From Herbaspirillum sp. AP02 (GTDB lineage Bacteria; Pseudomonadota; Gammaproteobacteria; Burkholderiales; Burkholderiaceae_D), in the NCBI RefSeq assembly GCF_015767275.1, contig NZ_JADWMY010000004.1, positions 248,001-312,000 of the forward strand: a stretch of 64,000 nucleotides of DNA, in the 5' to 3' direction. The position numbers and the translations under genes are program-made. Below are positions 39,291 to 57,133 of this stretch, piece after piece. Every line of letters begins with the position of its first letter. The stretch's first letter is position 1. The notes under the pieces are model-generated. The model ran no database searches. It worked only from the letters and a program-made list of their open reading frames with translations, and had not been told where the DNA came from.

Positions 39291-39953
39291 TCAATCCTGC
39301 GGCACCCAGGTGTGGGTTCCCGGCAGGTCGGACTGGAACTGCTCCAGCACCCTGATCTCGACCGGCTTGGGGGTATTGTCGCCCTGCCCCTGGATCTTCA
39401 CGATGTCCTGCGGACAGGCTGAAAAAGCGACGAAGCAATCCATCTCCGCGCGCAGGGTGATGAAGTCGCCCGGCTTGGTCACCGTGGGCAGGGTCTTGAG
39501 GGTGATGCCGTCGGGCTGGACGCGGATGTTCATGAAGATGTTGAACGAGGCCAGGTTGGGCCGTGGCGGGGTCACGCCCAGTTCGAACATGCCCTCGAAC
39601 ATGTTGTCGCAGCAATTGCGGTGGTAGTGCTGCACGCCCAGCAATTCGTAGCGGCGGCGGTCGCAGGCGGCCATGAAGGTGTCATGCACGCCCGGCGTGG
39701 CATCCTCCACCACGGTGAGGATGGGGTGGCGCTGGTTGGTCACGAAGCTGTCGCCGAGCACCGGGTTGAGCCGCTGGTTCCAGACGCGGGTGGTCTCCAT
39801 GCACATGTATTCGGCCAGGTCGTAGGCATTCCATGCCCAGCAGTCGACCACCTGGGTGCCGTGCGTGTTGATGACGCGCACGGCCTGCCCGGCCTGCAGT
39901 CGCACGGCCTTGCCGTGGCCGGCGGGAACGGTAATGGAAGCGGGAGAAGTCAT
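39291..39953 (-). CDS. DUF1989 / urea-carboxylase-associated family protein (paralogue 1 of the ABC cluster)
   Basis: 220 residues from the ATG at 39953, overlapping the ATPase stop by 4 nt. DUF1989 proteins include the two subunits of carboxyguanidine deiminase and share a cyclic-amidohydrolase-like barrel with probable metal ligands. Visible conserved residues are His90-Asp91 (PGVHDTF), Cys97, the Cys-Asp-Asn set at 115-117 (NCCDNMFE) and Cys180 in CPQ. All candidate ligands are present, so it should be a catalytically complete type. It is the last gene of a seven-gene minus-strand unit with an amino-acid-type importer, suggesting hydrolysis of an imported amidine/ureido compound. The substrate is unknown. 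Confidence 0.82.
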   Translation of the reverse strand: MTSPASITVPAGHGKAVRLQAGQAVRVINTHGTQVVDCWAWNAYDLAEYMCMETTRVWNQRLNPVLGDSFVTNQRHPILTVVEDATPGVHDTFMAACDRRRYELLGVQHYHRNCCDNMFEGMFELGVTPPRPNLASFNIFMNIRVQPDGITLKTLPTVTKPGDFITLRAEMDCFVAFSACPQDIVKIQGQGDNTPKPVEIRVLEQFQSDLPGTHTWVPQD

Positions 39954-40765
39954 GATGTCGGGGTTCCTGGGTTGAAGCGTTGAAGAAACTGGCGCAGCCG
40001 CGCCGAAGACGGTTGATCGATCACCTGCGCAGGCGGCCCCATCTCGACGATCCTGCCGCCGTCCATGAAGACCACCACGTCGGCCACGTCGCGCGCAAAG
40101 GCCACCTCGTGCGTGACCACGATCATGGTGGTCTGGGCGGCCGCCAGGGCGCGCATCACGGCCAGCACCTCGCCGACCAGCTCGGGGTCGAGGGCCGAGG
40201 TGGGTTCGTCGAAAAGAATCACCTCCGGCGCCATCGCCAGCATGCGGGCGATGCCTACCCGTTGCTGTTGCCCGCCCGACAGCGCGGCCGGCATCGCTGT
40301 GTGCTTGCCGGCCAGGCCGACCTTGCGCAGTGCTTCGGCGGCGATGTCGCTGGCCTTCAGGCGCGGAATGCCCTTGACCGAGATCAGGCCTTCCATGACG
40401 TTGTCGATCACGCTCATGTGTGGCCACAGGTTGAAGCTCTGGAACACCATGCCGATGCGGCTGCGCTGGGCACGGATCTCGCGCGCGGGACGGGGCTGCA
40501 GTCGCTGGTGCGGCCCTTCCCGCATGCCCACGCGCTCATCGCCGATCCAGACCTCGCCGGCGTCGGGCGGCGCCAGCCAGTTCAGGCAGCGCAGCAGGGT
40601 CGACTTCCCCGATCCGGAGGGACCGAGGATGCAGACCACCTTGCCGCGCTCGATATCGAGGCTGACGCCGTCGAGGATGCGTTGCGGGCCGAAGGACTTG
40701 ACGATGTTGCGAACGCGCAGGGCGATCGCGCCACCGGAGGGGGAATTCGGTTCGGTCGGGTTCAT
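39950..40765 (-). CDS. Polar-amino-acid-type ABC transporter ATPase
   Basis: 271 residues from the ATG at 40765 (MNPTEPNSP). Walker A GPSGSGKST near 55, signature LSGGQQQRVGIARML near 165, Walker B VILFDEPTSALDPELV near 183 and switch VTHEVAFARDVADVV. The LSGGQQQRVGIAR and DEPTSALDPELVGEVL motifs place it in the HisP/GlnQ group. Overlaps of 4 nt with both neighbours show coupling. Partners are the permeases at 40762-42157 and the binding protein at 43473-44306. Confidence 0.93.
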   Translation of the reverse strand: MNPTEPNSPSGGAIALRVRNIVKSFGPQRILDGVSLDIERGKVVCILGPSGSGKSTLLRCLNWLAPPDAGEVWIGDERVGMREGPHQRLQPRPAREIRAQRSRIGMVFQSFNLWPHMSVIDNVMEGLISVKGIPRLKASDIAAEALRKVGLAGKHTAMPAALSGGQQQRVGIARMLAMAPEVILFDEPTSALDPELVGEVLAVMRALAAAQTTMIVVTHEVAFARDVADVVVFMDGGRIVEMGPPAQVIDQPSSARLRQFLQRFNPGTPTS

Positions 40766-41466
40766 GGCGTGCGAGCGGATGAGGAGGATGAAATGCCATG
40801 GGACTGGACGCCATGGGCGATGGCAATGCGCTGCTCCCAGCGTCGCGTCAGCGCATGCAGCAAGCCGGTGGCGGCCCAGTACACCAGGGCCACCATGCAA
40901 TAGACTTCCAGCGGCGCATAGGTCTCGGCTACCACGCTCTTGGCGGCGAACATGAATTCATGCACCGAGATCACCGACAGCAATGCGGAATCCTTGAACA
41001 GGCCGATACCCAGACCGGTCAGGGTCGGCAGCAGCAGGGGCAAGGCCTGGGGCGCCACGATCCGGCGTGCGATGGCCAGCGGCGGCATGCCGATGGCGAC
41101 CGCCGCTTCCACCGTGCCCCGGGGCAGGCCGTCGATGGCGGCCTGGATCACCTGGGCGATGTAGGGCGCGTAATAGATGGCCAGCGTCAACACCCCCACC
41201 AGCGGCGCCGGCAGCAGCAGGCCGAAGTCGGGCAGTACGTAGAAGCTCACATAGAGCAGCACCAGCAAGGGCAAGGCCAGGGTGACGGCGATATAGGCAT
41301 CGATGAGCACGGCCAGCGGCCGCGGTCCCATGCGTCGCAACACCACCAGCACGATGCCCAGCAGGCAGGCCAGCACGGCACTGCTTGCGCACAGCCAGAA
41401 GGTGTCCACCAGACCGCCCAGCAGGGCCGGGACGTGCGGGCGCAGGATACCGGGATCGAAGGCCAT
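40762..41466 (-). CDS. Polar-amino-acid-type ABC transporter permease 1
   Basis: 234 residues with five membrane helices of the HisM/HisQ family. The conserved cytoplasmic loop reads EAAVAIGMPPLAIARRIVAPQALPLLLPTL near 135-165. The C-terminus overlaps the ATPase start by 4 nt. It forms a heterodimeric channel with permease 2, encoded one base upstream. Confidence 0.92.
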   Translation of the reverse strand: MAFDPGILRPHVPALLGGLVDTFWLCASSAVLACLLGIVLVVLRRMGPRPLAVLIDAYIAVTLALPLLVLLYVSFYVLPDFGLLLPAPLVGVLTLAIYYAPYIAQVIQAAIDGLPRGTVEAAVAIGMPPLAIARRIVAPQALPLLLPTLTGLGIGLFKDSALLSVISVHEFMFAAKSVVAETYAPLEVYCMVALVYWAATGLLHALTRRWEQRIAIAHGVQSHGISSSSSARTP

Positions 41467-41467
41467 G

Positions 41468-42157
41468 TCAGCTTCTCCCCGGAGTGGCAGGGCTGGTCAG
41501 TCGGGTCTGCCCGGACCGCGGCACCCGGCTCAGGTGCTTGCCCAGTGCCAGGACCGGCAGCACGACGGCGAGATAGCCGATGCTCACGATCAGCATGATC
41601 TGGGACGAGGTATAGGTGCGGGCAATCACCATCTGCCCGGCGTAGGTCAGCTCGGTCACGGCCACCACCGAGGCCAGCGGCGTGGTCTTGAGCAGGATCG
41701 TGAATTCATTGACCAGCGCCGGGATGCTGGCCTTGAGCACCTGCGGCATCACGATGCGCGTGGCGATGCGCCAGGGCGCCATGCCCAGCGCAGTGGCGGC
41801 CTCGATCTGGCCGCGAGCGACGACGCGCAGGTTGCCGCGCAGGATTTCAGCGGTGTAGGCGCCGCTGTTGAGGCCCAGCGTCAACGCCGCCGCCAGCAGC
41901 GGATGACCGCCCAGCCCGATCAGTGGCAGCGAGAAGAACACCAGGAACAACTGCACCAGCGCGGGCGTGCCGCGCATGAAACTGATGTAGAGCCGCACCA
42001 GCCAGCGCAGCGGAGCCAGCGGCGCCAGTTGCAGGGCCAGCGCCAGGTGACCCCAGGCCAGACTGCCGATGGCACCCAGCACGGTGAGTGAGACCGTCAT
42101 CATCCAGCCGTCGAGCAGCGCGGGAAAACTCTGGATCACCTGGGGACTAAACCACAT
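41468..42157 (-). CDS. Polar-amino-acid-type ABC transporter permease 2
   Basis: 229 residues, HisQ/HisM family. It has the YISFMRGTPALVQLFLVFF opening motif and the loop EAATALGMAPWRIATRIVMPQVLKASIPAL near 135-165. It begins 16 nt after the DUF1989 gene at 42174. The interleaving of permease and DUF1989 genes argues that transport and hydrolysis act on one substrate. Confidence 0.92.
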   Translation of the reverse strand: MWFSPQVIQSFPALLDGWMMTVSLTVLGAIGSLAWGHLALALQLAPLAPLRWLVRLYISFMRGTPALVQLFLVFFSLPLIGLGGHPLLAAALTLGLNSGAYTAEILRGNLRVVARGQIEAATALGMAPWRIATRIVMPQVLKASIPALVNEFTILLKTTPLASVVAVTELTYAGQMVIARTYTSSQIMLIVSIGYLAVVLPVLALGKHLSRVPRSGQTRLTSPATPGRS

Positions 42158-42173
42158 GCGCGCGCTCCGTTGC

Positions 42174-42809
42174 CTACAGGGCGTTCAGTTCTTCGGCGGT
42201 GGCCACTTCCAGCGCCCCCGGTCGGTCGTTGCCGGGCACGCCGGTACAACAGGCCGAGACCACGAAGACCATGTCGGCCACCACCCGGCAGGCGATGAAG
42301 TCGCCGGCCCGGGTGCGACTGGGCAAGGGAATGATACGGCCCTGCTGGTCCAGATCGACATGCATGAAGAGATTGATCGGGTCGGGCAGGCGCGGCGGCG
42401 TCAGGCCCTGCTCCTGGATGACGGCCGAGACCGACTCCACGCAGCCGGTCTGGCCGGCATAGCCGTTGGCGGCCAGCCAGGCGGTGGTGGAAGCCGGCAT
42501 GAGCAGGTCGTGCGTGCCGACGCTGTCCTTGCCCAGCACCATCAGCGCGCGACGTCGGTTGCTGACGATGCGCATGCCCGCCTGCAGGACATAGGAATTG
42601 CTGAAGACGCGGGTATGGTGCACCGACATGAAGATGTCAGGCTGGGCGCGATCGAAGGCGAACAGCATGGCGGTGGCGCCGTCCTCGCACGCTTCGATGC
42701 GCAGGATCTGGCCGGCCTTGACGTCGATGGCGCGGCTTTCGCCGGCCGGCACCACCAGGCGCGCGGGTGGCAGAGGCTGGCGGGGCGGGGTTTCTTTGAG
42801 CAGCAGCAT
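42174..42809 (-). CDS. DUF1989 family protein lacking part of the conserved residue set (paralogue 2)
   Basis: 211 residues. The fold signatures are kept (VPAGESRAIDVKAGQILRI, INLFMHVDLDQ, AGDFIACRVVADMVFVVSAC). His100-Asp101 is present (GTHDLL). The Cys expected six residues after the Asp is Ser107, and the C-x-D-N set reads C123-V-E125-S126. The CPQ motif is replaced by ACCTG (Cys187). It is the most divergent of the three and may be a structural or regulatory partner of a neighbouring paralogue, as in two-subunit carboxyguanidine deiminase. It lies 5 nt downstream of the third paralogue. Confidence 0.78.
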   Translation of the reverse strand: MLLLKETPPRQPLPPARLVVPAGESRAIDVKAGQILRIEACEDGATAMLFAFDRAQPDIFMSVHHTRVFSNSYVLQAGMRIVSNRRRALMVLGKDSVGTHDLLMPASTTAWLAANGYAGQTGCVESVSAVIQEQGLTPPRLPDPINLFMHVDLDQQGRIIPLPSRTRAGDFIACRVVADMVFVVSACCTGVPGNDRPGALEVATAEELNAL

Positions 42810-42814
42810 GATGG

Positions 42815-43450
42815 TCAGTCGGTGGACGCCGCGGCACGGCGGTGCGGATCGGCGTCATGGATGGAAATGCCAATATCGGTGACCCGCAGGCCGTTGCCGG
42901 GAATGATGTCCTGCGGGCAGGACGAGACGGCGCAGAGCAGGTCTTCCAGCACCTCGAAGGTGATGTGATCCCCCGGCTTGCTGGTCGGGTCGGTGACCTG
43001 CATGCGGCGGTCCGGGGTGACCGGGCCGTTCTGGAAGAGATTGAAGGGCTCCGGCACGTCGAACTTGGACAGGCCGTGCAGCGCCAGGCCTTCGTGCATG
43101 TTGTCCAGGCAATTGCGGTGACCGATCACGTTGAAGTCGACCGTGAAACGGGTATCGTCGCAGGCCGGAACATTGGCATCATGCACGCCGACGGTGTCGG
43201 CCACCACGCGCAGCAGCGGCCGGTCCAGCGAGGAGTACAGATGGTCGCCGACGTCGAAGAAGATCGACTGCAGCCTGCGGCGGGTATGCGTGGGCGAGAG
43301 TTTCTCGCTCTTGTCACCGGCGACGACGGCCACGAAATCGGCCGCCTGCTGACCCTCGACATCGGTGATGGTGAGGAACTGGCCGGCCTTGACTTCAAAG
43401 GTCCGGCCATGACCGGCGGGGACGGTCAGGGAGTGGGTGTGGTTACACAT
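42815..43450 (-). CDS. DUF1989 / urea-carboxylase-associated family protein (paralogue 3)
   Basis: 211 residues from the ATG at 43450 (MCNHTHSLTVPAGHG); the frame is open 35 codons earlier, into the binding-protein gene. The full residue set is present: His90-Asp91 (VGVHDAN), Cys97, Cys114/Asp116/Asn117 (HRNCLDNMHEG), Cys178 in CPQ, followed by a DIIPGNG tail typical of the family. It closely parallels the first paralogue in spacing, so the two are probably recent duplicates. It follows the binding-protein gene by 22 nt. Confidence 0.82.
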   Translation of the reverse strand: MCNHTHSLTVPAGHGRTFEVKAGQFLTITDVEGQQAADFVAVVAGDKSEKLSPTHTRRRLQSIFFDVGDHLYSSLDRPLLRVVADTVGVHDANVPACDDTRFTVDFNVIGHRNCLDNMHEGLALHGLSKFDVPEPFNLFQNGPVTPDRRMQVTDPTSKPGDHITFEVLEDLLCAVSSCPQDIIPGNGLRVTDIGISIHDADPHRRAAASTD

Positions 43451-43472
43451 GCTGGCAGGTCGTATTGGGCGC

Positions 43473-44306
43473 TTATTTGGCGGGAATGAAATCGGCATCG
43501 GGCGTGGCGAAGGTGACGCCCAGGTATTGCTGCTGCAGGCGGGCCAGTTCGCCACTTTTCTTCATGGCCAGGATCTGGTCGCTGACGGCCTTGTTCAGGC
43601 GCGTATCTTCCGGACGGGTGGCCAGGGCGATCCACTGCGAGGGGCCCAGTTCGCCGGTGATCTTCATCTTGCCGGGGTGCTGCTTGATGACGTCGGCCAG
43701 CACGGTCAGGTCATCGAAGACGAAGTCGGCGCGGCGGGTCATGAGGGCGGCCACGGTCTGGTCAACGCTATCGACGCTGAGCAGGGTGATCGGCGCCAGC
43801 CCCTTGGCCTTGAGCGTGTTGTTGAACTGCTTGAGGATGCCCTCGGGCGCGCTGCCGGTCTTGACCGCCCCGGTCAGGCCGGCCAGCGATTCCGGCGTGG
43901 GCTTGGCGGGAATCTTGGTGAAGTCATCGCGCACCAGGGGGCCGTTGACGGTCTTGCCGGTCGGCACCACGTAGGCGATGCGCTTGGCGCGTTCGGCCGT
44001 CACGTTCAATGCCGAGCCTTCCATGTCGAAGGAACCTGACAACAGGCCGGGAATGATGCCGCTGAAGGCCATGCGCTGGTATTCGATCTTCACGCCCAGG
44101 CTCCTGGCCACCGCCGCCAGCACGGCCGGGTGGTAGCCCACGATGGCGTTGGAGGCATCGGTGTATTCATAGGGCGCGAAGGTCGGATCGATGGCAACGA
44201 TCATCTTGCCACGGCTCTTGATGTCGTCCAGCGTGTCGGCATGGGCGGCGACGCTGCAGAACAGCAGTGCGGAAAGCAGATAGCGGGACAGACGTGGTGC
44301 GGACAT
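43473..44306 (-). CDS. Periplasmic binding protein of the polar-amino-acid-type ABC importer
   Basis: 277 residues from the ATG at 44306, with AGGAG 6 nt upstream; an earlier Met at 44378 lacks support. A signal peptide ends near residue 23 (SVAAHADTL). SBP_bac_3 features include MIVAIDPTFAPYEYTD, a RMAFSGIIPGLLSGSFDM strand and a C-terminal LARLQQQYLGV. The usual ligand Arg/Asp pattern of amino-acid binders is only partly visible, so ligand identity cannot be read. It is the first gene of the DUF1989 cluster and faces the RpiR gene across a palindrome-rich gap. Confidence 0.9.
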   Translation of the reverse strand: MSAPRLSRYLLSALLFCSVAAHADTLDDIKSRGKMIVAIDPTFAPYEYTDASNAIVGYHPAVLAAVARSLGVKIEYQRMAFSGIIPGLLSGSFDMEGSALNVTAERAKRIAYVVPTGKTVNGPLVRDDFTKIPAKPTPESLAGLTGAVKTGSAPEGILKQFNNTLKAKGLAPITLLSVDSVDQTVAALMTRRADFVFDDLTVLADVIKQHPGKMKITGELGPSQWIALATRPEDTRLNKAVSDQILAMKKSGELARLQQQYLGVTFATPDADFIPAK

Positions 44307-44378
44307 GAGCGGCTCCTGGAGGTTGAGGGACGATGGGATCGCACAGGCGATCCGGGCAAGCACGATCATGCAATGCAT

Positions 44379-44472
44379 GTTTCATGCCAATCAATCTTGA
44401 AACTCTAGTTTCCTACGGGGAATGCCATGAAACACCAGATTCAACCAGGAAAAATCTGAAATATCTGTTTCA
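44379..44472. promoter_or_regulatory. Palindrome-rich operator region between the ABC/DUF1989 operon and the RpiR gene
   Basis: The 299-nt divergent gap holds four GTTTCA/TGAAAC half sites: 44379-44384, the perfect palindrome GAAACT-CT-AGTTTC at 44399-44412, TGAAAC at 44428-44433 and GTTTCA at 44467-44472. The last two face each other across 33 nt. A cluster like this beside a regulator gene is a probable RpiR operator controlling both directions. No other element is apparent in the gap. Confidence 0.6.
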
Positions 44473-44605
44473 CGACTGCACCGGGGACGTACAATGCCTC
44501 TCGTTCCATGGCAGCACCGGTCCGCACAGGACAGGTGCGCCGCACCGCACTGGAATGATTCTTGCACCAACCCGCACCATCCCAGACCAGGCCGTCCAGA
44601 CAACC

Positions 44606-45487
44606 ATGGCAAGCATTCCCAGCAAGAAAAACAAGGCCTCGGCCTCCATCGAAAGCCGCATCGCGGCGCTGTACGAACAGCTTTCCGGAATCGACCAGCG
44701 GCTGGCCGATATCATCCTCAGCGCACCGGGTCAGCTGGCCATGCAGACGGCCACCGAGTTGGCCGAAAGCGCGCAGGTGTCCAAGGCCACCGCCACCCGC
44801 TTTTTCCAGAAACTTGGCTATGCGTCCTACGACGATGCCCGGGAAGACGCGCGCGCGGCATTGATGGGAGGGTCGCCCCTGTATCTGCAGAAGCGCGGAG
44901 AGAAGGAAGCCCGAAGCGGGCTCGGCGCCACCATCGAGGCGCACCTGAACCATGAAGTCGCCAACCTGGCCAATACCTACCGCTCGCTGGACCCGCAGGT
45001 CCTGACCGATGCGGTCAATGGCATTGCCAATGCGCAGCGCGTGGCGATCATCGGTTATCGCCATAGCCATACGATCGCGCAGATGATCCGGCGCGAACTG
45101 ATCCAGGTGCGCAGCAATGTGCTGGTGCTGCCGGCACCAGGGGATACGCTGGCCGAGTACCTGGGCGACCTGGGCGAGCGCGACATGGCCATTGTGATCG
45201 GTCTGCGCCGCCGGGTGCCGGCGATCTCACTGGCGATGGACGCCCTGGCCGAGGCCGGCGTGAAGACCCTGTACGTGTCCGATGTGATTGCCGGCAAGCC
45301 GGCCCGGCGTGCCGACTGGGTGATCCGCTGCCATACCGATGGCATGATGCTGTTCGACAGCGTGGTGGCCGTCTCCGCGATGATCAACCTGATCTGTTCG
45401 CTGACGGCCGAACGGCTGCGCGAACGCGGCAATGGCCACCTGCAGCGGGTGGAGGTGCTGCACCAGAAGTTGAAGGAACTGGAATGA
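44606..45487 (+). CDS. RpiR/MurR-family transcriptional regulator
   Basis: 293 residues from the ATG at 44606 (MASIPSKKNKAS). A long open stretch upstream is AT-richer leader and not part of the family. An RpiR helix-turn-helix occupies about 15-85 (LADIILSAPGQLAMQTATELAESAQVSKATATRFFQKLGY). A SIS domain spans 125-275 (RVAIIGYRHSHTIAQMIRREL, KTLYVSDVIAGKPARRADWVIRC). SIS domains usually bind phosphosugars, but RpiR members near ABC importers often regulate other catabolic genes. It is divergent from the DUF1989 operon and is the likely controller. Confidence 0.92.
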   Translation: MASIPSKKNKASASIESRIAALYEQLSGIDQRLADIILSAPGQLAMQTATELAESAQVSKATATRFFQKLGYASYDDAREDARAALMGGSPLYLQKRGEKEARSGLGATIEAHLNHEVANLANTYRSLDPQVLTDAVNGIANAQRVAIIGYRHSHTIAQMIRRELIQVRSNVLVLPAPGDTLAEYLGDLGERDMAIVIGLRRRVPAISLAMDALAEAGVKTLYVSDVIAGKPARRADWVIRCHTDGMMLFDSVVAVSAMINLICSLTAERLRERGNGHLQRVEVLHQKLKELE

Positions 45488-45550: not shown

Positions 45551-45958
45551 TCAGGGATGCAGCGACAGTCCCTTGGTGGCCTTGTCCACCGCCTTCTTGC
45601 CACCGCGCAGGGCCAATCCCACCAGATTCATGGATGCCGGGTCTTCTGCCAGAAAGACCTCGCGATTGGCGTCGTCATGGCCGGTGGAGAACATCGCCTG
45701 CACATAGGGGGCGACGATCAGCTCACGCTCCAGGCCGATGCGATGGGCTGCCTGCAGCCCCTGCAGGTCGGCCTCGAAGATCAGGATGGGTTGGCCGCAC
45801 AGAGCGGTGTAGTGCTTCCCGGCGGCATCGACATAGGGCGTGCCCAGAGCTTGCGGCGCGGCGGCGACGATGCCGGTGGCCAGGAATGCGGTGACGTTCA
45901 GGCGTTGCCACACGGGCAGGTCATTGCGCACCAGGATGGCGATTTTGGTATCGAACAT
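45551..45958 (-). CDS. DUF2000-family protein
   Basis: 135 residues from the ATG at 45958 (MFDTKIAILVRNDLPVWQRLNVTAFLATGI). The remainder has YVDAAGKHYTALCGQPILIFEADLQGLQAAHRIG and ends MNLVGLALRGGKKAVDKATKGLSLHP. This is the length and pattern of DUF2000, whose structure resembles peptidyl-tRNA hydrolase 2; no function is established. It converges on the RpiR gene. The next upstream gene (AraC) ends 54 nt away on the same strand. Confidence 0.85.
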   Translation of the reverse strand: MFDTKIAILVRNDLPVWQRLNVTAFLATGIVAAAPQALGTPYVDAAGKHYTALCGQPILIFEADLQGLQAAHRIGLERELIVAPYVQAMFSTGHDDANREVFLAEDPASMNLVGLALRGGKKAVDKATKGLSLHP

Positions 45959-46011
45959 GCGGTCTTCCCGATCAGAATTCAGAGCATTCCATCTTAGGAA
46001 GCCGCCACGTT

Positions 46012-46860
46012 TCACTCTAGAACGTTTGTGCATACGCGCCGGTAAGCGGCCGGGGTGATGCGATAGGCGCGCCGGAACCAGCGGCCCAGGTGGCTCTGGT
46101 CGGCAAAGCCGGCATCGGCCGCGACCTGGGCCGGGTCATGGCCGGCCGCCAGGAGGCTGCGCGCCTGGCGCAGGCGCAATTGCACCAGATACGCATGCGG
46201 GGTGCGACCGAAGGCCTGGCTGAACTGGCGGCTCAGGCGGAACCGGTCCATCCCTGAACAGGCGACCAGATCATCCAGGCCCAGATCGTCGGCGAAACGC
46301 GCATGCATCAGATCGCGCACCCGTTGCAGCGCCGGGGAAGGCGGCTCGCTCCTGCGGGCCACGCTGTCATCAAACTGGCCGGAGAGCAAGACCAGCATGC
46401 GGTCCAGCGCCAGGTCGCGGGCCAGTTTGCCCTCGCGCTGGTGCAAGGCCAGGAAGGCCCGGTGGATGGCCCCGGCAAGCTGGGCGTCGTCGTGCAGGGT
46501 CTGGCGGAAGGCGGCGAAGCGGGTCATCGCGGGCAGGCGCAGGTGGTCGGTCATCCTGTCCAGCCAGCGCGTGGGCAGGTAGAGCATGGCGTAGGTAAAG
46601 CCGCTTTCATGGGGCGCGTGACCGTCGTGCAGGGCACCGGGTTCGATCAGGATGGACTTGCCGGGGGTGCTGACGTGCAGGGCCGTGCCACAGCGAAAGC
46701 GCTGCACGCCCTGCAGGGTCACGCCGACCAGCATCTCGTCATGGTCGTGCGGATCGTAGGCATGGCCGGAGAAATGGGCGCCGATGCTCTCGATGCCGCT
46801 GTCCTCGTCGCGCTGCAGCCTGATCCATTCCTGGGCGGGGGTGGGAGAAAGAATGTCCAT
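46012..46860 (-). CDS. AraC-family transcriptional regulator with cupin-type N-terminus
   Basis: 282 residues. An AraC-binding cupin domain at about 20-150 has the DPHDHDEMLVGVTLQGVQRF metal-type motif and IEPGALHDGHA. The C-terminal DNA-binding domain shows LGLDDLVACSGMDRFRLSRQFSQAFGRTPHAYLVQLRLRQARSLL and a second HTH (DPAQVAADAGFADQSHLGRWFRRAYRITPAAYRR). Family members next to small DUF2000 or LysE-type genes are common; the target is probably a neighbour. Confidence 0.93.
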   Translation of the reverse strand: MDILSPTPAQEWIRLQRDEDSGIESIGAHFSGHAYDPHDHDEMLVGVTLQGVQRFRCGTALHVSTPGKSILIEPGALHDGHAPHESGFTYAMLYLPTRWLDRMTDHLRLPAMTRFAAFRQTLHDDAQLAGAIHRAFLALHQREGKLARDLALDRMLVLLSGQFDDSVARRSEPPSPALQRVRDLMHARFADDLGLDDLVACSGMDRFRLSRQFSQAFGRTPHAYLVQLRLRQARSLLAAGHDPAQVAADAGFADQSHLGRWFRRAYRITPAAYRRVCTNVLE

Positions 46861-49751: not shown

Positions 49752-49934
49752 GCCGCCACCGTGCGGCAACTAGAGGGCCCGTGCTCATCGCCGCCGGGAG
49801 ATCGCATGAGGGCAGTATCGACAACGCAGGGCCGGGCAGCGTCGGGCCACGACGTCCCGGACATGCCGCGGGTGTTCAGGTAGGCAGGCTATCCTTTACA
49901 ATCGCGGCATCGCCGGTCATTGCACGAATATTGC

Positions 49935-51233
49935 ATGTCCTTGCGGCTGTCCGCTCCCTCCTTTCCTGCGCCCATGAGCAACGTCCTCAACTACCTGATC
50001 ACTGCCCGCCGCTGCGAAGTGGAAGAACTGCAACGCCTCGCCCGCACCTGCCAGCTGGTGCTGACGGTGGGCAAACTGATCCACTGCCTGCAGCAGGAAC
50101 GCGGCATTTCCAATATCTACCTGGGCTCGCGCGGTGAGCGTGATGCCCTGGTGTGGCGCGAGCGCGTGGCCGCCAGCGAGGCGGCGCAACAGGAGTTTGC
50201 CTCCTGGCTGGAGGCCACCGAACATGACAACGCGCTTTCCAACGGCGCCCGCCTCTATACCCGCATCGCCTTCGCCTTGCACGCCCTGGACGGCCTGCCG
50301 CGCCTGCGCGCCGACGTGGCGGCCCTGGCCTGTTCACCGGCAGCGAGCTACGAGCGCTTCAAGACGCTGGTGGGGGCGCTGCTGGCGCTGGTGTTCGAAG
50401 CCGCCGACGTCGCCGTGGATCCGCAGATCTCGCGCCTGCTGGTGGCGCTGTTCAACCTGATGCAAGGCAAGGAATTCGCCGGCCGCGAGCGCGCCGGAGG
50501 CGCCGCGGCCTTTGCCATGGGCAAGATCACGCGCGAACAGGAACAAAGCATCGAATACCAGATCGAGATGCAGGAGCAGGCGCTGCGCCGTTTCGAGTCC
50601 TTCGCCGAGGGTTTCCGCAACGAGTGGACGGCGATGCAGGCCACGCTGCCGCTGGCCGAGCTGGAGCGACTGCGCCGCAAGCTGCTGACCTCGCACGAGC
50701 GGCCGCTGGATTCCGATATGGCCGATGCATGGTACCAGTGCTGCTCCACCCGCATCGATGGCCTGCATCAGGTCGAGATTCACCTGGCGCAATACGTGCA
50801 GGCGCAATGCCGCGCCAAGATCATCGAACTGCAGAAGGAGCTGGACGATCAGGGCCAGTGGTTCAGCCAGGAAGAGGCGCTCGATCCGCTGGCCCCCCTG
50901 GCGACCTTCTCCTCCAGCCTGGATGGCGGGCACCTGAGCGGCGGCCCCATGGATGCCGGGGTCGGGCCGCACCTGACACAATCCATCGTCGATCTGCTGC
51001 GGGCGCAGTCCGAACGGCTGCAGAACCTGACCCAGGAGCTGGCTACCGTGCGCGAGAGCCTGGAAGAGCGCAAGCTCATCGAGCGCGCCAAGGGCGTGCT
51101 GATGATGAAGCAGGGGCTCAATGAAGAAAACGCCTATCGCCTCCTGCGCAAGCATGCGATGAACCAGAACCGGCGCATCGCCGAAGTGGCCCAGGCCATC
51201 CTGTCGCTGACGGAAATCCTGCCGGACGCCTGA
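49935..51233 (+). CDS. nasR: Nitrate-responsive antiterminator with NIT and ANTAR domains (NasR-like)
   Basis: 432 residues from the ATG at 49935; ATG 49974 and TTG 49920 are alternatives without clear ribosome sites. The N-terminal NIT domain spans about 35-270: TCQLVLTVGKLIHCLQQERGISNIYLGSRG in its first helix bundle and FNLMQGKEFAGRERAGGAAAF, the nitrate-binding type sequence. The C-terminal ANTAR domain spans about 365-425 (RESLEERKLIERAKGVLMMKQGLNEENAYRLLRKHAMNQNRRIAEVAQAIL). When nitrate binds, NasR grips hexaloop hairpins in leader RNA and prevents termination. The only such leader seen here is at 27311-27356, before the nas operon 22 kb upstream. Confidence 0.92.
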   Translation: MSLRLSAPSFPAPMSNVLNYLITARRCEVEELQRLARTCQLVLTVGKLIHCLQQERGISNIYLGSRGERDALVWRERVAASEAAQQEFASWLEATEHDNALSNGARLYTRIAFALHALDGLPRLRADVAALACSPAASYERFKTLVGALLALVFEAADVAVDPQISRLLVALFNLMQGKEFAGRERAGGAAAFAMGKITREQEQSIEYQIEMQEQALRRFESFAEGFRNEWTAMQATLPLAELERLRRKLLTSHERPLDSDMADAWYQCCSTRIDGLHQVEIHLAQYVQAQCRAKIIELQKELDDQGQWFSQEEALDPLAPLATFSSSLDGGHLSGGPMDAGVGPHLTQSIVDLLRAQSERLQNLTQELATVRESLEERKLIERAKGVLMMKQGLNEENAYRLLRKHAMNQNRRIAEVAQAILSLTEILPDA

Positions 51234-51253: not shown

Positions 51254-54200
51254 TCAGCAAGCGGCCGCCTGTGCGGTCTCTTCCATGACCAGTACACACT
51301 GCCCGGCGCGCACCGGGCTGCCGGGCTGCACGCGCACCTCGGCGACGATGCCGCCAGCGGGCGCGGCAATACTGATTTCCATCTTCATCGATTCGAGGAT
51401 CATCAACAGTTCACCCTGCTCCACCCGCTGCCCCGGACTGACCTTGACCTGCCACAGGTTGCCGGCAATCGGCGCATCCACCGCCAGTTGTCCGGGCTGC
51501 AGGGGCTGTCCCTGGTCAGTACTCGCAGCAGCGTCCTCGATGGCGAAGTCGGCCTGGCCACTGGCGATCCAGCGCTCACGCTCGGCGTCGAAGGCGGCCT
51601 GCTGGTGTCGACGGAAGGCCGCGATGCCCTCGGCCTCCTGCTCCAGGAAGTCCGCATAGTCGGCCAGGTTCAGGCTGGTCTCCTCGATCTGCAGATCGAA
51701 GCGGCCCAGCGGGAAGTCACGGCGTATCGTCTGCAACTCCTGGGCTGTCACCGGATAGAAGCGGATCTGATCGAAGAAGCGCAGCAGCCAGGGCTTGCCA
51801 CGGAAGGCGGCGACCTCGCGGTAACGATTCCACATCTGCAGGGTGCGACCGACGAACTGATAGCCACCCGGCCCTTCCATCCCGTAGATGCATAGATAGG
51901 CGCCGCCGATGCCGACCGAGTTCTCTGCGGTCCAGGTGCGGGCGGGGTTGTATTTGGTGGTGACCAAGCGATGGCGCGGGTCCAGCGGCGTGGCCACCGG
52001 CGCGCCGAGGTAGACATCGCCCAGGCCCATGACCAGGTAGCTGGCGTCGAAGACGGTTTCGCGCACCGCCCCGATGTCCTTGAGGTCATTGATGCGACGG
52101 ATGAATTCCAGGTTGCTGGGACACCACGGCGCATCCTTGCGCACGGTGGTCATGTATTTCTCGATGGCCAACTGGCAGGCCGGATCGTCCCACGACAAGG
52201 GCAGATGCACGATACGCGACGGGACTGCCAGGTTTTGGCGGACGCAGACGGCATCCCATAATCCTGCGATGGTATCGAGCAAGCGCTGCAGCGGCAGCGC
52301 TTCGGGCTGGTAGTGCAGCTGCAGGGAACGGATGCCGGGGGTGAGGTCGATCACGCCGGGCAGCGCCTGCTCCTCCAGGGCCGCGATGAGCGCATGGACG
52401 CGGAAGCGCAGCACCAGGTCCAGCTGCGGGCTGCCGACCTCCAACAGCAGATTGGTGTCACCCGACAGCCGTGCCACCAGACGCCGGTCATCGCGCCCAA
52501 GGTCGAGCACGATGGGGGACGACAACGCAGCCGGTGCCCAGTCAATGGCCGTCGGTGCCAGGCTGTCGACGGCCTGCTGACCGGCCAATGCGATACGACG
52601 CGCGGTGCTCACCTCCACCGGGACGAAGCGTAACCTGTCGCCGGCCTTGAGCTGGCCGAGTTGCCACAGGTCGGCCTCGATCACGGTGACCGGGCAAACG
52701 AAACCGCCCAGGCTGGGCCCGTCCGGACCAAGGATGACCGGCATGTCGCCGGTGAAATCCACCGCGCCCACGGCATAGGGATTGTCGTGGATGTTGGAAG
52801 GATGCAGCCCGGCCTCGCCGCCGCTGTCACGAACCCATTCCGGCGTTGGGCCGATCAGGCGCACGCCGGTGCGGCTGGAATTGAAATGCACTTCCCACTC
52901 GGTGGCAAAGAAGGTATCGATGTAGGCTGGCGTGAAATATTCCGGAGCGCCATGGGGACCATAGATCACCCGCAGATGACGTACCTCAGCGAGCGCCGGA
53001 TACAAGCCCTGCGGGAGTACCTGCCCGGCCTCCGAATCCGTGCATGGCGCCAGGTGCAGGATGTCGCCCGTGGCCAGCGCCCGTCCGCCGTGGCCGCCGA
53101 ACTGACCCAGCGTGAAGGTACTGCGGCTACCCAGGTAGGCCGGCAGCTGCACCCCGCCCCGCACGGCCAGATAGCTGCGTGCACCGGTACCGCTGATGAC
53201 TCCCAGCTTGAGCGTGCTGCCGGCGGCGATGGACAGGGTCGTGTCCATCGCCTGCGCCACGCCGTCGATCTGCAGCGCAATACGGGCGCCGGTCACGGCG
53301 ATCACGGCGGCGGTATTGAAGCGCAGTGTGGGCCCGCTCATCGTCATCTCCAGCGCCGCCGCATCGGAGGCGTTACCCAGCAGGCGATTGGCCAGCCGCA
53401 ATGCGCGATCATCCATCGGTCCCGAGGGCGGCACGCCGACGGCCCAGTAGCCGATGCGCCCGGGATAGTCCTGTACCGTGGTCTGGGTTCCAGGTGCCAG
53501 CACTTCCACCGTGTCGGCCCGATAGACCAGCTGCTCCAGGCAGCGTGTCCACGGCTGGCCGCTGGCGAAGGGGACGTCGGCCAGGATCTGGCGCAGATAA
53601 TGCTGGTTGGTCTGCACCCCGTAGAGCCCGGTCTGTCCCAGCGCCGCATCCAGGGCTAGGCGCGCGGCATCGCGCGTGGGTTGCCAGCTGATCAGCTTGG
53701 CGATCATGGGATCGAAATAAGGCGCGATTTCGCAGCCGGCCTCGACCCAGGTATCGATGCGCAGGGCGCGGCCGTCGGTGGGCGGGAACGCCACTGCCGT
53801 CAGCAGGCCCGGGCAAGGCTGGAACTGGCGGCCCGGATCTTCCGCATACAGGCGGGCCTGGATGGCATGACCGCTGGGCTGCAGGGTGGCGGCCAGTTGC
53901 GTCAGGGGCGGCAGGTCGCCGGCGGCCAGCTCGATCATCCAGCGCACCAGATCCACGCCCCATACCTGTTCGGTGACGCCATGCTCGACCTGCAGTCGGG
54001 TGTTCACTTCGAGGAAGTAGAACTGGCCGGCCTGGCTGTCGTAGACGAATTCCACGGTCCCGGCACTGCGATAGGACACCGCCCGCGCCAGCTTGATGGC
54101 GGCCGCGCACAGCGCTTCGGCCATGCCCTGCGGCAGGTTGGGGGCGGGTGTTTCTTCCAGCACCTTCTGGTTGCGTCGTTGCACGGAACAGTCGCGCACC

Positions 54201-54871
54201 CCCAGGGCGATCACCTCGCCACGACCGTCGCCGAAGACCTGCACTTCCAGATGGCGGGCACGTTCGATGTATTTCTCGATGAAGACGCCAGCGTCGCTGA
54301 AATTGTTCTGTCCGAGACGGCGCACCGACTCAAAAGCGTCGCCCAGTTCATCATCGCTGCGGCAGACGCGCATGCCGATGCCCCCACCCCCTGCAGTGCT
54401 CTTGAGCATGACCGGATAACCCACGCGGGCGGCCGCCTGGAGGGCGGTGTCCAGATTGTCCAGCAGGTCCGTGCCTTCCAGCATCGGTAGGCCCTGCTCG
54501 CGCGCCAGCGCACGGGCGGTGTGTTTCAGGCCGAAGATGCGCAGCTGTTGCGGGGTGGGACCGACGAAGGCAATCCCGGCGGCTTCGCAGGCTTCGGCAA
54601 AGGCGGCATTCTCGGACAGGAAGCCATAGCCGGGATGGATGGCCTGGGCACCGCTGTCGCGGGCGGCGGCCAGGATCTTGTCGACAGCCAGATAGGTCTG
54701 CGCTGCCGCGCCTTCGCCCAGGGAAATGGCGTGGTCGGCCTGCAATACGTGCAGGCTGCCGATATCGGATTCCGAATAGACGCACACTCCGGTGACGTCA
54801 AGCGCGCGCAAGGTACGCAGGATGCGGCAGGCAATGGCGCCGCGATTGGCGATGAGCAGATGATCGAACAT
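51254..54871 (-). CDS. Biotin-dependent guanidine/urea carboxylase
   Basis: 1205 residues, the full length of bacterial urea carboxylase. Order: biotin carboxylase with ATP-grasp (MFDHLLIANRGAIACRI; KSTAGGGGIGMRVC near 155-170; FYFLEVNTRLQVEHGVTE near 285-302), carboxyltransferase AHS2 part (VQDYPGRIGYWAVGVPPSGPMDDRAL, from about 465), AHS1 part (about 800-1060), and a biotinyl domain with Lys1163 in ESMKM. Enzymes of this family linked to guanidine-I riboswitches and two DUF1989 subunits were shown to be guanidine carboxylases. The operon here starts with such a riboswitch, so guanidine is the likelier substrate. No allophanate hydrolase gene follows; the operon ends against nasR. Confidence 0.93.
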   Translation of the reverse strand: MFDHLLIANRGAIACRILRTLRALDVTGVCVYSESDIGSLHVLQADHAISLGEGAAAQTYLAVDKILAAARDSGAQAIHPGYGFLSENAAFAEACEAAGIAFVGPTPQQLRIFGLKHTARALAREQGLPMLEGTDLLDNLDTALQAAARVGYPVMLKSTAGGGGIGMRVCRSDDELGDAFESVRRLGQNNFSDAGVFIEKYIERARHLEVQVFGDGRGEVIALGVRDCSVQRRNQKVLEETPAPNLPQGMAEALCAAAIKLARAVSYRSAGTVEFVYDSQAGQFYFLEVNTRLQVEHGVTEQVWGVDLVRWMIELAAGDLPPLTQLAATLQPSGHAIQARLYAEDPGRQFQPCPGLLTAVAFPPTDGRALRIDTWVEAGCEIAPYFDPMIAKLISWQPTRDAARLALDAALGQTGLYGVQTNQHYLRQILADVPFASGQPWTRCLEQLVYRADTVEVLAPGTQTTVQDYPGRIGYWAVGVPPSGPMDDRALRLANRLLGNASDAAALEMTMSGPTLRFNTAAVIAVTGARIALQIDGVAQAMDTTLSIAAGSTLKLGVISGTGARSYLAVRGGVQLPAYLGSRSTFTLGQFGGHGGRALATGDILHLAPCTDSEAGQVLPQGLYPALAEVRHLRVIYGPHGAPEYFTPAYIDTFFATEWEVHFNSSRTGVRLIGPTPEWVRDSGGEAGLHPSNIHDNPYAVGAVDFTGDMPVILGPDGPSLGGFVCPVTVIEADLWQLGQLKAGDRLRFVPVEVSTARRIALAGQQAVDSLAPTAIDWAPAALSSPIVLDLGRDDRRLVARLSGDTNLLLEVGSPQLDLVLRFRVHALIAALEEQALPGVIDLTPGIRSLQLHYQPEALPLQRLLDTIAGLWDAVCVRQNLAVPSRIVHLPLSWDDPACQLAIEKYMTTVRKDAPWCPSNLEFIRRINDLKDIGAVRETVFDASYLVMGLGDVYLGAPVATPLDPRHRLVTTKYNPARTWTAENSVGIGGAYLCIYGMEGPGGYQFVGRTLQMWNRYREVAAFRGKPWLLRFFDQIRFYPVTAQELQTIRRDFPLGRFDLQIEETSLNLADYADFLEQEAEGIAAFRRHQQAAFDAERERWIASGQADFAIEDAAASTDQGQPLQPGQLAVDAPIAGNLWQVKVSPGQRVEQGELLMILESMKMEISIAAPAGGIVAEVRVQPGSPVRAGQCVLVMEETAQAAAC

Positions 54872-54917
54872 TCAGGTGGCCTTGAAATCCGGGTCGTCCC
54901 GTGAATCGAAAAACCGG

Positions 54918-54954
54918 CTCGCGGTCGTCCGCGAGGGGTGCAGGTCGGCCTGCA
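54918..54954 (-). other. Twin GC hairpins in the gap before the carboxylase gene
   Basis: Two perfect adjacent hairpins: CTCGCGG-TCGT-CCGCGAG (54918-54935) and TGCAGG-TCGG-CCTGCA (54939-54954). They occupy the 101-nt gap between the DUF1989 gene and the carboxylase and have no U-tract. They may mark an RNA-processing or stability boundary that tunes the carboxylase level. Confidence 0.5.
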
Positions 54955-54972
54955 AAGGACGTGGCGCGAGGA

Positions 54973-55608
54973 TCAGTCCCAGACCAGCACTTCGGCTGCG
55001 GTCGGATTCCAGCCATTGCAGGGATTGTTCAACTGCGGGCAGTTGGAAATGAGCACGATCAGGTCTTGCGCGGCCAGCAGTTCCACGTACTTGCCGGGGG
55101 CCGAGATGCCGTCCTCGAAGGTCAGCCCACCCTCGGGGGTGACGGGGACGTTCATGAAGAAATTGATGTTGGCGCCAATGTCGCGCTTGTTCAATCGGCC
55201 ATCATGCAGACAGGCGCACAGGAAGTTATCGCGGCAGCTGTGCATATAGCGCTTTTCCAGTGCATAGCGCACGGTATTGCTCTCCTGGGCACAGGCGCCC
55301 CCGAGGGTGTCGTGACAGCCACAGGTATCGGCCACGATGGTGGCCAGCGGACGCCCCAGATTGGAATACAGCACGCTGCCGGCCCCCAGATAGGCACGCT
55401 GCTGGCGGCGCAGGGTACGCTGCGGATCGTAGCGTTCGCGTGGATTGGCGGCGCTGTAGAACAAGGTGTCGATGGCCTGGTTGCCTTCCAGGTCGAGCAG
55501 GCGCAGGGTCTGGCCGGCCCTGAGGTTGAACAGGTAGGGTTCGCCGGCCGGGATCACGTGGCGGAACACCGCTTGCTCGGGCGCGAGCTGGCTTTCGATG
55601 ATGTGCAT
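54973..55608 (-). CDS. DUF1989 protein of the guanidine operon (carboxyguanidine deiminase subunit, UAAP-type)
   Basis: 211 residues. Residues shared with the family: His99-Asp100 (CGCHDTL), Cys106 (GGACAQ), Cys125/Asp127/Asn128 (HSCRDNFL) and Cys190 in NCPQLNNPCNGWNPT. The NNPCNG-NPT ending is the mark of one of the two urea-amidolyase-associated proteins. In the characterised pathway a two-subunit DUF1989 enzyme removes ammonia from carboxyguanidine to give allophanate. This is the subunit with the full Cys/His set. It starts 15 nt after the partner gene and precedes the carboxylase. Confidence 0.88.
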   Translation of the reverse strand: MHIIESQLAPEQAVFRHVIPAGEPYLFNLRAGQTLRLLDLEGNQAIDTLFYSAANPRERYDPQRTLRRQQRAYLGAGSVLYSNLGRPLATIVADTCGCHDTLGGACAQESNTVRYALEKRYMHSCRDNFLCACLHDGRLNKRDIGANINFFMNVPVTPEGGLTFEDGISAPGKYVELLAAQDLIVLISNCPQLNNPCNGWNPTAAEVLVWD

Positions 55609-55623
55609 GGAATCCTCCAGGTC

Positions 55624-56355
55624 TTAGAGATAGAAGCGTTCGGTATTGTGGAAGGCGCGCTCGTTCTCCGGACGAGAGCGGCGGCAGCCGCTGGTGCCGT
55701 CGTCGCCCTGCGCCTGCGTCCATTGCAGTTGCACCGGACGCGGTGCGTAGCGGGGATCGGGGTCCATCGGATGTTGCAGGGCGGTCAGGATGATCAGGGT
55801 GTCCATCGGCGCGGCCAGTTCGATGGCGTCGCCGGCCCGGGAGTTGCCCGGCACGAAGGCCAGGCCGCCTTCGGCATCCACGCTCACGCGCGAAAACAGG
55901 TTCACCACCATCAGCAGGTCTTGCAGGTCGAGGTTCCATTTCCCCATTTCGACCAGCAGGTTATCGACGCCATTGCGATAAAAGCCGTTGCGCAATTCCT
56001 GATAACGGCCCTGACCATATTTCTCGCGCACTTCCTCGGCATTGAGTACACCGCCGAAACTGTCATGCCAGCCGCAGGTGTCCTCGGTGATAGCGGCCAG
56101 CACGCGGCCCATGTCGGAATACAGGCAGTGGCCGGCACGCAGCCGCGCGGTATGCTGGCCTTTCAGGGTATCGGGCAGGTTCAGACGCTCGCTGGGCTGG
56201 TGGGCGTTGAGCATCATCATGCTGACGTTGGCCCCGCCTTCGATGTCGGTGATGCGCAGCGACTGGCCGCGCTTGAGGATGAAGGAAGTATGGCCTCCCC
56301 CCGGTAGCCGTTCTTCGTAGAGACTGGCCTGGATGGCCAAGGGATTCGTGCTCAT
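55624..56355 (-). CDS. DUF1989 protein of the guanidine operon (partner subunit lacking the Cys set)
   Basis: 243 residues. It keeps His97-Asp98 (CGWHDSF) and Asp131-Asn132 (NGVDNLL). Leu104 and Val130-region residues replace the Cys found in its partner, and there is no CPQ motif (ALQHPMDPDPRY instead). The long insertion VLNAEEVREKYGQGRYQELRNGFY is typical of the UAAP1-type. A hetero-oligomer with the 54973-55608 product is the expected carboxyguanidine deiminase. It begins one base after the stop of the ATPase gene upstream. Confidence 0.87.
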   Translation of the reverse strand: MSTNPLAIQASLYEERLPGGGHTSFILKRGQSLRITDIEGGANVSMMMLNAHQPSERLNLPDTLKGQHTARLRAGHCLYSDMGRVLAAITEDTCGWHDSFGGVLNAEEVREKYGQGRYQELRNGFYRNGVDNLLVEMGKWNLDLQDLLMVVNLFSRVSVDAEGGLAFVPGNSRAGDAIELAAPMDTLIILTALQHPMDPDPRYAPRPVQLQWTQAQGDDGTSGCRRSRPENERAFHNTERFYL

Positions 56356-56356
56356 G

Positions 56357-57133
56357 TCAGATTTCCTTTGCAGAGAGAAGACCGGTCAGCTTGCCGGCCT
56401 GTTCACGGGCTCGCGCCTCGTTGAGGGCGATGTCATAGGTGATGTGGGCGCCATAGGCTTGCGGGTATTGCGGGTCAACGCGTACCTTGTCGAATACCAG
56501 CAGGCGGGTACCCAGGCTGAACCCTTCGGAAAGGTCATGCGTGACCATGAAGACGGTCAGGCCGCTGTCGCGCCATAGATCGAGCAACAGCGTATGCATT
56601 TCCTTGCGGATGCCGGGATCGAGCGCGCCGAAGGGTTCGTCCAGCAATAGCACGCGTGGGCGCGCAATGAGGGCCTGCGCGATGGCCAGACGCTGCTGCA
56701 TGCCGCCCGAGAGACTGGCGGGATACAACTGCAGTGCATGGCCCAGCCCAACCCGGTGCAGCAGCTGCGCTGCGGCGTCACGCGCCCGGCGCCTGGATCC
56801 GCCAAACAGGCGGCCGAACAGCGGTGCGCGGGGCAACTCCAGGCCGATGACCACGTTGTCCAGCACGCTGAGGTGCGGAAACACCGAATAGCGCTGGAAC
56901 ACCACGCCGCGCGTGGCATCGGGTTCGGCCGGGAAGGGCTGGCCCTGCAACAGCAACTGCCCCTTGCTGGGCCGCTCCTGACCCAGCAGCAGGCGCAGGA
57001 AGGTGGACTTGCCGCAACCGGAGGCCCCCACCAGGGTACAGAACTGGCCCTCCTCCACCCGCAGATTCAGCCGTTCCAGCACCACGTTGGCGCCATATTG
57101 TTGCCAGACGTTGCGAATCTCGATATAGCTCAT
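56357..57133 (-). CDS. ABC transporter ATPase of the guanidine operon (nitrate/sulfonate/taurine type)
   Basis: 258 residues. Walker A GASGCGKST near 37, signature [16 protein letters not shown] near 140, Walker B VLLLDEPFGALDPGIRKEM near 162 and switch VTHDLSEGFSLGTR. It is of the SsuB/TauB/NrtD group. It overlaps the permease stop by 4 nt. It should energise uptake of guanidine with the permease next to it and the binding protein encoded divergently at 59064. Confidence 0.93.
   Translation of the reverse strand: MSYIEIRNVWQQYGANVVLERLNLRVEEGQFCTLVGASGCGKSTFLRLLLGQERPSKGQLLLQGQPFPAEPDATRGVVFQRYSVFPHLSVLDNVVIGLELPRAPLFGRLFGGSRRRARDAAAQLLHRVGLGHALQLYPASLSGGMQQRLAIAQALIARPRVLLLDEPFGALDPGIRKEMHTLLLDLWRDSGLTVFMVTHDLSEGFSLGTRLLVFDKVRVDPQYPQAYGAHITYDIALNEARAREQAGKLTGLLSAKEI

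Follow-up and report, generated by a model that had tools for sequence, protein, structure and literature searches.

What does a bacterium take up and break down with three DUF1989 proteins and a single importer? The question is raised by a 64,000-nucleotide stretch of Herbaspirillum sp. AP02 DNA (contig NZ_JADWMY010000004.1, positions 248,001 to 312,000 of the forward strand; hereafter the window), which carries at its positions 39291-45487 a unit of eight genes: three DUF1989 genes (A, B and C), an amino-acid-type ATP-binding cassette (ABC) importer and an RpiR/MurR-type regulator. We propose, with a probability of about 0.5, that the unit, under nitrogen control, takes up an amino-acid-like compound bearing a ureido or guanidino group, which A-B and C break down in two steps. 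The initial annotation had called the unit undescribed-looking; the unit is real, and a literature search covering titles and the openings of abstracts found no description of it.

The unit consists of seven genes on the minus strand and one divergent gene on the plus strand. All eight were confirmed where the initial annotation had placed them, by position and by Pfam and NCBIfam profiles. The minus-strand genes encode, in this order, a family-3 substrate-binding protein (SBP; 43473-44306), DUF1989-A (42815-43450), DUF1989-B (42174-42809), permease 1 (41468-42157), permease 2 (40762-41466), the importer ATPase (39950-40765) and DUF1989-C (39291-39953). The regulator gene occupies 44606-45487 on the plus strand (HTH_6 39.6 bits, SIS 31.1 bits, both above their cut-offs). 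Start codons were picked manually, that of the SBP by eye from its signal peptide (MSAPRL...). Membership of the DUF1989 family is clear for all three proteins, which score 174 (A), 116 (B) and 151 bits (C) on PF09347, with a Pfam gathering cut-off of 27 bits. Overlaps of four bases join permease 2 to the ATPase and the ATPase to DUF1989-C, and the remaining four junctions are spaced by 1 to 22 bases; the description of the genes as coupled by overlaps thus holds for two of the six junctions and fails for the other four.

The unit is rare and scattered across bacteria, and its gene order is conserved. Scanning genome contigs with a profile built from an alignment of protein A yielded 54 loci, 52 of which hold the unit in the same gene order, including two cut by contig ends (L044 and L048); the remaining two (L094 and L095) hold other DUF1989 proteins. 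The unit is therefore not a chance cluster. This survey, which had been suggested along with the initial annotation, bore out the order of importer and three DUF1989 genes as fixed, and the regulator gene proved mobile, being divergent, upstream in line or located behind DUF1989-C. Hosts include Herbaspirillum, Paraburkholderia, Caballeronia, Robbsia, Collimonas, Pseudomonas, Pantoea, Rahnella, Kosakonia, Erwinia, Enterobacter, Vibrio, Devosia and Aureimonas, and a Palleronia plasmid likewise carries the unit. Strong matches to protein A occur in 3 of 195 genomes of a family sample, the window's genome among them (any DUF1989 match: 36 of 195), in 1 of 399 genomes of an order sample, namely the window's own (E up to 1e-38), and in 3 of 198 genomes of an enterobacterial family sample (E up to 1e-60). 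All counts of 52 to 55 given here include a few non-independent rows, because one contig appears as both L037 and L067, L042 (H. frisingense) hardly differs from the window and a single genome contributes L053 and L054. Promoter counts leave out L044, which lacks the SBP gene, and position counts for sigma54- and NtrC-type elements the duplicate L067; the SBP residue count leaves out L044 and L074, and host-genome searches leave out L044 and L048.

The ATPase gene between permease 2 and DUF1989-C is absent from all 32 gammaproteobacterial loci (L058-L066, L068-L088, L092 and L093), so the importer of these hosts may borrow an ATPase from elsewhere. In Rouxiella, a second amino-acid importer lies just upstream of the RpiR gene (L080:4872-7138), with an ATPase 51% identical to that of the window, and a few gammaproteobacterial loci hold distant ATPases only. 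Other loci carry additional genes. Paraburkholderia xenovorans LB400 has two full units, on chromosomes 2 and 3 (L053 and L054), each with an allantoicase gene. Directly 3' of the unit, two Caballeronia loci (L055:7043-11111 and L056:13629-17697) encode an extra SBP plus one more DUF1989 protein, the fourth, some 284 residues long, together with a fused permease-ATPase-like gene and, as read in L055, a GntR-like gene, both identified by eye. On the Palleronia plasmid, a second amino-acid SBP, two permeases, an aldehyde dehydrogenase and a molybdopterin oxidoreductase are encoded 5' of the unit (L038:430-7502). The unit of an Oxalobacteraceae metagenome-assembled genome adjoins genes for a dihydropyrimidinase, an M20 deacylase and an amidase, the last cut by the end of the stretch.

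The three DUF1989 proteins form separate clades and differ at the predicted metal site. In a tree of 134 of the 242 collected sequences, with 19 rows each for A, B and C, every bootstrap tree gives each of the three proteins a clade of its own (clade support 100/99, 100/100 and 100/98, respectively), outside both clades of carboxyguanidine deiminase. C falls inside a larger clade that also takes in relatives belonging to other gene clusters, the deeper branching being unsure owing to long branches. As a reference site we used D198, C263, H276, C279, C343 and D346 of trimethylamine-N-oxide demethylase (Tdm; M. silvestris numbering, as given in PMC12560246). The six corresponding residues are intact in 55/55 A proteins (D39, C98, H112, C115, C179 and D182 in the window, where counting begins at the Ser that precedes the start Met) and in 55/55 C proteins (D37, C97, H111, C114, C180 and D183). 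As all six are kept, A and C possess a Tdm-like site and are putative zinc-type enzymes. B, by contrast with this, has lost the first Asp (55/55), the first Cys (55/55), the His (54/55) and the last Asp (51/55), the other two Cys being mostly retained. The reading of the unit as three equal DUF1989 enzymes consequently fails, because B is degenerate at up to four of its six metal-site positions. B is probably a non-catalytic partner of A, and A plus B resembles the pair of one intact and one degenerate protein in CgdAB, the DUF1989 proteins of carboxyguanidine deiminase. In UAAP2-type (cgdA-type) proteins of guanidine operons, the Asp and the three Cys are kept (20/20), the His is replaced by Met (19/20) or Gln and the last Asp by Leu (19/20) or Ile. 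Two predicted structures, with mean predicted local distance difference test scores of 76 and 79, show for both A and C the DUF1989 fold and nothing beyond it; C matches 3ORU with a template modelling (TM) score of 0.81 at 39% identity, and A matches 3SIY with a TM score of 0.76.

The importer is of the amino-acid (family 3) type. The SBP matches SBP_bac_3, both permeases match BPD_transp_1 and exceed the TIGR01726 cut-off of 42 bits (permease 1, 92 bits; permease 2, 64 bits), and the ATPase is an ABC_tran protein with best NCBIfam matches to TcyN, EhuA and GlnQ, all under cut-off. The SBP carries the pocket signature R106 and D199, as well as D40. The Arg and Asp, which in proteins of this kind hold the carboxylate and the amino group of the ligand, respectively, are kept in 53/53 SBPs of the unit, and the imported compound accordingly looks like an alpha-amino acid. 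SBPs from six clusters with a single DUF1989 gene keep the Arg and replace the Asp with Ser (6/6).

The region before the SBP gene contains elements pointing to two layers of control. A palindrome of the form GAAAY-N4-RTTTC is present in 54/54 upstream regions, at 3.41 per kb compared to 0.11 per kb across whole loci. Across its 64 kb the window contains two of these sites, with 0.04 expected, both located before the unit and found by pattern search: GAAAT-N4-GTTTC at 44458-44471 and GAAAC-N4-GTTTC at 44399-44412, putative RpiR operators 1 and 2. A sigma54-type -24/-12 element, here one that matches at least 9 of the 12 consensus positions and lies on the downstream side of the first palindrome at a distance of 50 to 95 bases, is found in 47/49 beta- and gammaproteobacterial regions (Burkholderiales 15/17, Pseudomonas 4/4, Enterobacterales 27/27, Vibrio 1/1), the control rate in random stretches of the same loci being 1.3 to 2%. 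In the window it is TGGCATGAAACATGCA (44374-44389, minus strand), matching 10 of 12 positions. In Burkholderiales, NtrC-type sites occur at about -95 and -66, with at least one in 14/17 regions and two in 11/17 (control 0.6%). The single NtrC-type site before the unit in the window (GCAC-N7-GTGC, 44524-44538) lies at this conserved place and is weak by itself, the window holding 3 such patterns with 4.06 expected by chance. From these elements we infer nitrogen control of the unit combined with substrate control by RpiR. Some enterobacterial loci, such as L068, L071 and L083, carry a second palindrome, GGCGC-N5-GCGCC, about 97-117 bases before the operator, in the stretch where Burkholderiales carry NtrC-type sites.

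Allantoicase genes have joined the unit in some hosts. In 12/52 unit loci an allantoicase gene follows directly behind DUF1989-C, at a spacing, taken up to the aligned start, of 33 to 50 bases in 11 of them and less in the twelfth, and both of the linked allantoicases tested exceed the TIGR02961 cut-off. The claim that the unit lacks a hydrolase is consequently correct for the window, whose operon contains neither allantoicase nor allantoate amidohydrolase, and incorrect for these 12 loci. In a tree of 35 allantoicases, all from unit-bearing genomes so that wider sampling could change the result, one clade of linked copies lies within the Burkholderiaceae copies and another within the Pseudomonas copies. 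The slot behind C therefore appears to have been filled twice, and a single ancestral linked allantoicase, which we also considered, is unsupported with linked copies at two tree positions. All ten linked genomes that were searched keep additional, unlinked allantoicase copies. Urease (21 genomes) or urea/guanidine carboxylase (45, of which 44 exceed the cut-off) is present in 49/50 unit genomes, which counts in favour of the proposal. M20 carbamoylases occur in 22/23 tested unit genomes (G959, one of the 23, has an unlinked allantoicase), a count we set aside as evidence because enzymes of this family are common and the count lacks a background rate for comparison. In the window's own genome, the best matches to the allantoinase AllB fall under the cut-off, a ureidoglycolate-lyase-like gene lies beside an amidase gene and a peptide-type importer (by eye) and the two stretches that were inspected revealed no canonical ureide operon.

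Relatives of DUF1989-C in other gene clusters provide a further line of evidence. Thirteen annotated plasmid neighbourhoods were hand-picked among the matches listed; the other plasmid stretches fetched comprise two without annotation and three with Tdm-like or fused DUF1989 proteins. In 6 of the 13, an amino-acid importer accompanies M20 carbamoylase and/or arginase-family genes, and among 12 further C-like loci, three of them short stretches, 4 hold arginase and/or M20 genes. One cluster arginase has 3-guanidinopropionase as its nearest match (360 bits) and one cluster M20 protein has N-carbamoyl hydrolases, while the C relatives in these ureido/guanidino-type clusters keep the identical six site residues. 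Like the unit, such clusters combine an amino-acid importer with a DUF1989 protein of C's larger clade; unlike the unit, they possess, as far as the inspected stretches extend, a single DUF1989 gene, and LysR or helix-turn-helix-cupin regulators. Domain fusions of C-like proteins were also considered as a clue to function and discarded, the long frames that were read being mere upstream extensions.

Taken together, the nitrogen-control elements, the double recruitment of allantoicase and the guanidinopropionase-like and carbamoylase-like neighbours of C relatives argue for a catabolic unit that probably acts on a ureido or guanidino compound. We infer the substrate class, the pairing of A with B, the control and the reactions from such comparisons of sequence. 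Under nitrogen shortage, NtrC and sigma54 would start transcription before the SBP gene, and RpiR bound to the GAAAY-N4-RTTTC operators would add substrate control. The ABC importer would then take up an alpha-amino-acid-like compound, most likely with a ureido or guanidino group, which DUF1989-A, with B as partner subunit, and DUF1989-C would cleave at C-N bonds in two steps as zinc-type enzymes. The products would feed urea breakdown and, in hosts where allantoicase joined the operon, might enter at the level of allantoate. Many hosts belong to plant-associated genera, and the compound may thus be a plant-borne nitrogen source. Of the initial interpretation, the idea of a conserved, catabolic-looking unit for an imported, nitrogen-rich and probably ureido or guanidino compound is retained; the assumptions of a single role for DUF1989 proteins and of three equal enzymes are not.

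Several observations weigh against this proposal. The Arg/Asp pocket of the SBP suits any alpha-amino acid, ordinary ones included. Seven of the 13 plasmid neighbourhoods of C relatives hold an amidase and a deacetylase-fold gene instead of importer-linked carbamoylase or arginase genes, and of the 12 further C-like loci, one holds amidases and a flavin reductase and 7 are without marker genes. The genome search found no allantoicase in 37/50 unit genomes, that of the window included, and no ureidoglycolate lyase in 31/50; allantoicase is therefore an optional addition rather than a core component, and we rejected it as a required part. The contrast in urea/guanidine carboxylase, which occurs in 27/27 enterobacterial unit genomes (in one of them in two pieces) and in 61/198 of those sampled from the family, speaks for the proposal, but kinship and the reduced genomes among the background make it larger than it should be. 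No sigma54-type element is found at the usual place in the alphaproteobacterial regions (0/4), two of which possess a perfect element on the opposite side of the palindrome, and NtrC-type sites are present in just 3/27 Enterobacterales and 0/4 Pseudomonas regions.

The clusters with amidase and deacetylase-fold genes (L040, L111, L112, L114, L115, L118 and L152) range from Rhizobium to Nocardia. Most of them also encode a flavin reductase or an Old Yellow Enzyme-like protein, and their transporters vary. We also considered these 'Type III' clusters as possible purine operons; their deacetylases score only 74 and 65 bits on the PuuE profile against 425.

The main rival to the proposed ureido/guanidino breakdown, which we consider unlikely, is that allantoate itself is imported and that A-B and C are aminal/hemiaminal C-N lyases. 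A-B would free urea from allantoate, C would split ureidoglycolate to glyoxylate and urea, and the allantoicase, where present, would double the first step. This explanation accommodates the apparently twofold recruitment of allantoicase behind C, the urease or urea/guanidine carboxylase of 49/50 hosts and the His and Asp that A and C share with Tdm, which, according to PMC12560246, frees formaldehyde from an amine compound. It would also assign a task to the unit in the 27 enterobacterial hosts: neither allantoicase nor ureidoglycolate lyase was found in these genomes, so A-B and C would supply both steps. However, the conserved amino-site Asp of the SBP, together with D40, would be unexpected if the ligand were an anion that lacks an ammonium group. 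In addition, the ten searched genomes with a linked allantoicase hold other allantoicases and ureidoglycolate lyase, so that A-B and C would duplicate functions already present in these hosts.

Two further readings, dealkylation of the Tdm type and a role of the DUF1989 proteins other than catalysis, are less likely. In the former, A and C would free an aldehyde, possibly formaldehyde, from a substrate that combines an amino-acid head with an N-methyl, N-hydroxymethyl or N-oxide group. All six Tdm site residues are present in A and C, cgdA-type proteins differ at the His and the last Asp in 20/20 cases and the best NCBIfam profile of A, B and C is that of Tdm, although far under its full-length cut-off. 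The six residues do not single out Tdm chemistry, however, because C relatives in ureido/guanidino-type clusters bear the same ones; moreover, there is no GcvT domain or gene in the unit, and the allantoicase is left unexplained. The second possibility, an ordinary nitrogen-controlled amino-acid importer with DUF1989 proteins that bind, sense or store, agrees with the ordinary amino-acid type of importer and SBP and with the degeneration of B. It is difficult to reconcile with a complete metal site in 55/55 A and C proteins, with allantoicase having joined the unit in 12 loci and with the arginase or carbamoylase genes beside some C relatives.

A further reading, and a long shot, is that the compound taken up is a guanidino analogue of allantoate, for example ring-opened guanidinohydantoin (iminoallantoin), which A-B and C, as stand-alone deiminases acting from guanidino to ureido group, would convert to allantoate without carboxylation. 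Guanidinohydantoin forms on oxidation of guanine. If A-B and C yielded allantoate, the addition of allantoicase behind them on two occasions would follow, and the zwitterion-type SBP pocket, the dihydropyrimidinase-type gene beside one unit and the CgdAB precedent would fit as well. If true, this would represent a salvage route for oxidised guanine, of which a single literature search gave no description. Finally, although they belong to the same superfamily and lie in the same window, A, B and C are very unlikely to be spare subunits of CgdAB that serve the guanidine pathway encoded 6 kb away, and we rejected them as paralogues of carboxyguanidine deiminase: they fall under the UAAP1 and UAAP2 cut-offs and outside the CgdA and CgdB clades, the His and last Asp of A and C differ from cgdA-type proteins and no riboswitch match precedes the unit at gathering scores.

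That guanidine pathway is encoded at 51254-58068 by a guanidine carboxylase operon with its own pair of DUF1989 genes, whose products pass the UAAP1 and UAAP2 cut-offs at 318 and 311 bits. All five DUF1989 genes of the genome are located in the window. The initial statement that no carboxylase is present therefore holds for the unit itself and not for the window, which contains one in this operon. A guanidine-I riboswitch lies before the operon (58082-58182) and a guanidine-II riboswitch before the carboxylase gene (54889-54936), while a second guanidine-I riboswitch precedes an SBP gene at 59064-60140 on the opposite strand. The same layout of riboswitch and cgdA/B is published for V. boliviensis (PMC12508155). 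Between the two DUF1989 operons, a nitrate-sensing and ANTAR-type regulator is encoded at 49920-51233 (by eye), and just outside the unit, at 45551-46033, a DUF2000 protein (PF09391, 144 bits) lies beside an AraC-like regulator (by eye).

The unit can be compared to ureide breakdown and to the characterised DUF1989 systems. With the allantoate branch, consisting of allantoicase and ureidoglycolate lyase, it shares the allantoicase behind C in 12 loci, and to our knowledge importer and DUF1989 genes of this type are not among the known ureide genes. The solved structures nearest by sequence are 3ORU/3SIY (TM1040_0329), Tdm and 3DI4 (SPO0365), of which 3ORU/3SIY and 3DI4, the nearest to the unit proteins by fold, are DUF1989 structures without a known function. 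With CgdAB (UAAP1/UAAP2) the unit has in common the protein family, an adjacent intact and degenerate protein and a link to nitrogen supply. In contrast, the unit proteins form separate clades and reach at best 77 and 125 bits where 206 (UAAP1, TIGR03425) and 285 bits (UAAP2, TIGR03424) are required, there is neither a carboxylase in the unit nor a riboswitch match before it and A and C keep the His and Asp where cgdA-type proteins mostly have Met and Leu. Deimination of carboxyguanidine had been regarded as the one established role of DUF1989 proteins. This premise is wrong because Tdm is likewise a DUF1989 metalloenzyme with a different chemistry (NF053776; PMC12560246), and these two reactions, deimination of carboxyguanidine and demethylation of trimethylamine N-oxide, are the only published ones we found in the sources accessible to us. 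A and C share all six site residues with Tdm, and among the NCBIfam profiles A, B and C all score highest on NF053776, with 147, 62 and 98 bits that cover the DUF1989 part only and stay below the cut-off of 1100. Tdm, however, comprises about 760-790 residues with an N-terminal DUF1989-like and a GcvT domain, whereas the unit proteins are stand-alone proteins of 211-220 residues in which Pfam detects no GcvT domain, and no such gene was seen in the unit. DUF1989 is thus a widespread family of likely metal enzymes in which A and C represent two enzymes without an assigned reaction, and the unit, by independent lines, ties the family to allantoate-level and guanidino chemistry. As a compact, regulated and scattered operon, it offers a substrate open to direct screening, and the His/Asp difference that sets A, C and Tdm apart from cgdA-type proteins represents a testable split of the DUF1989 family.

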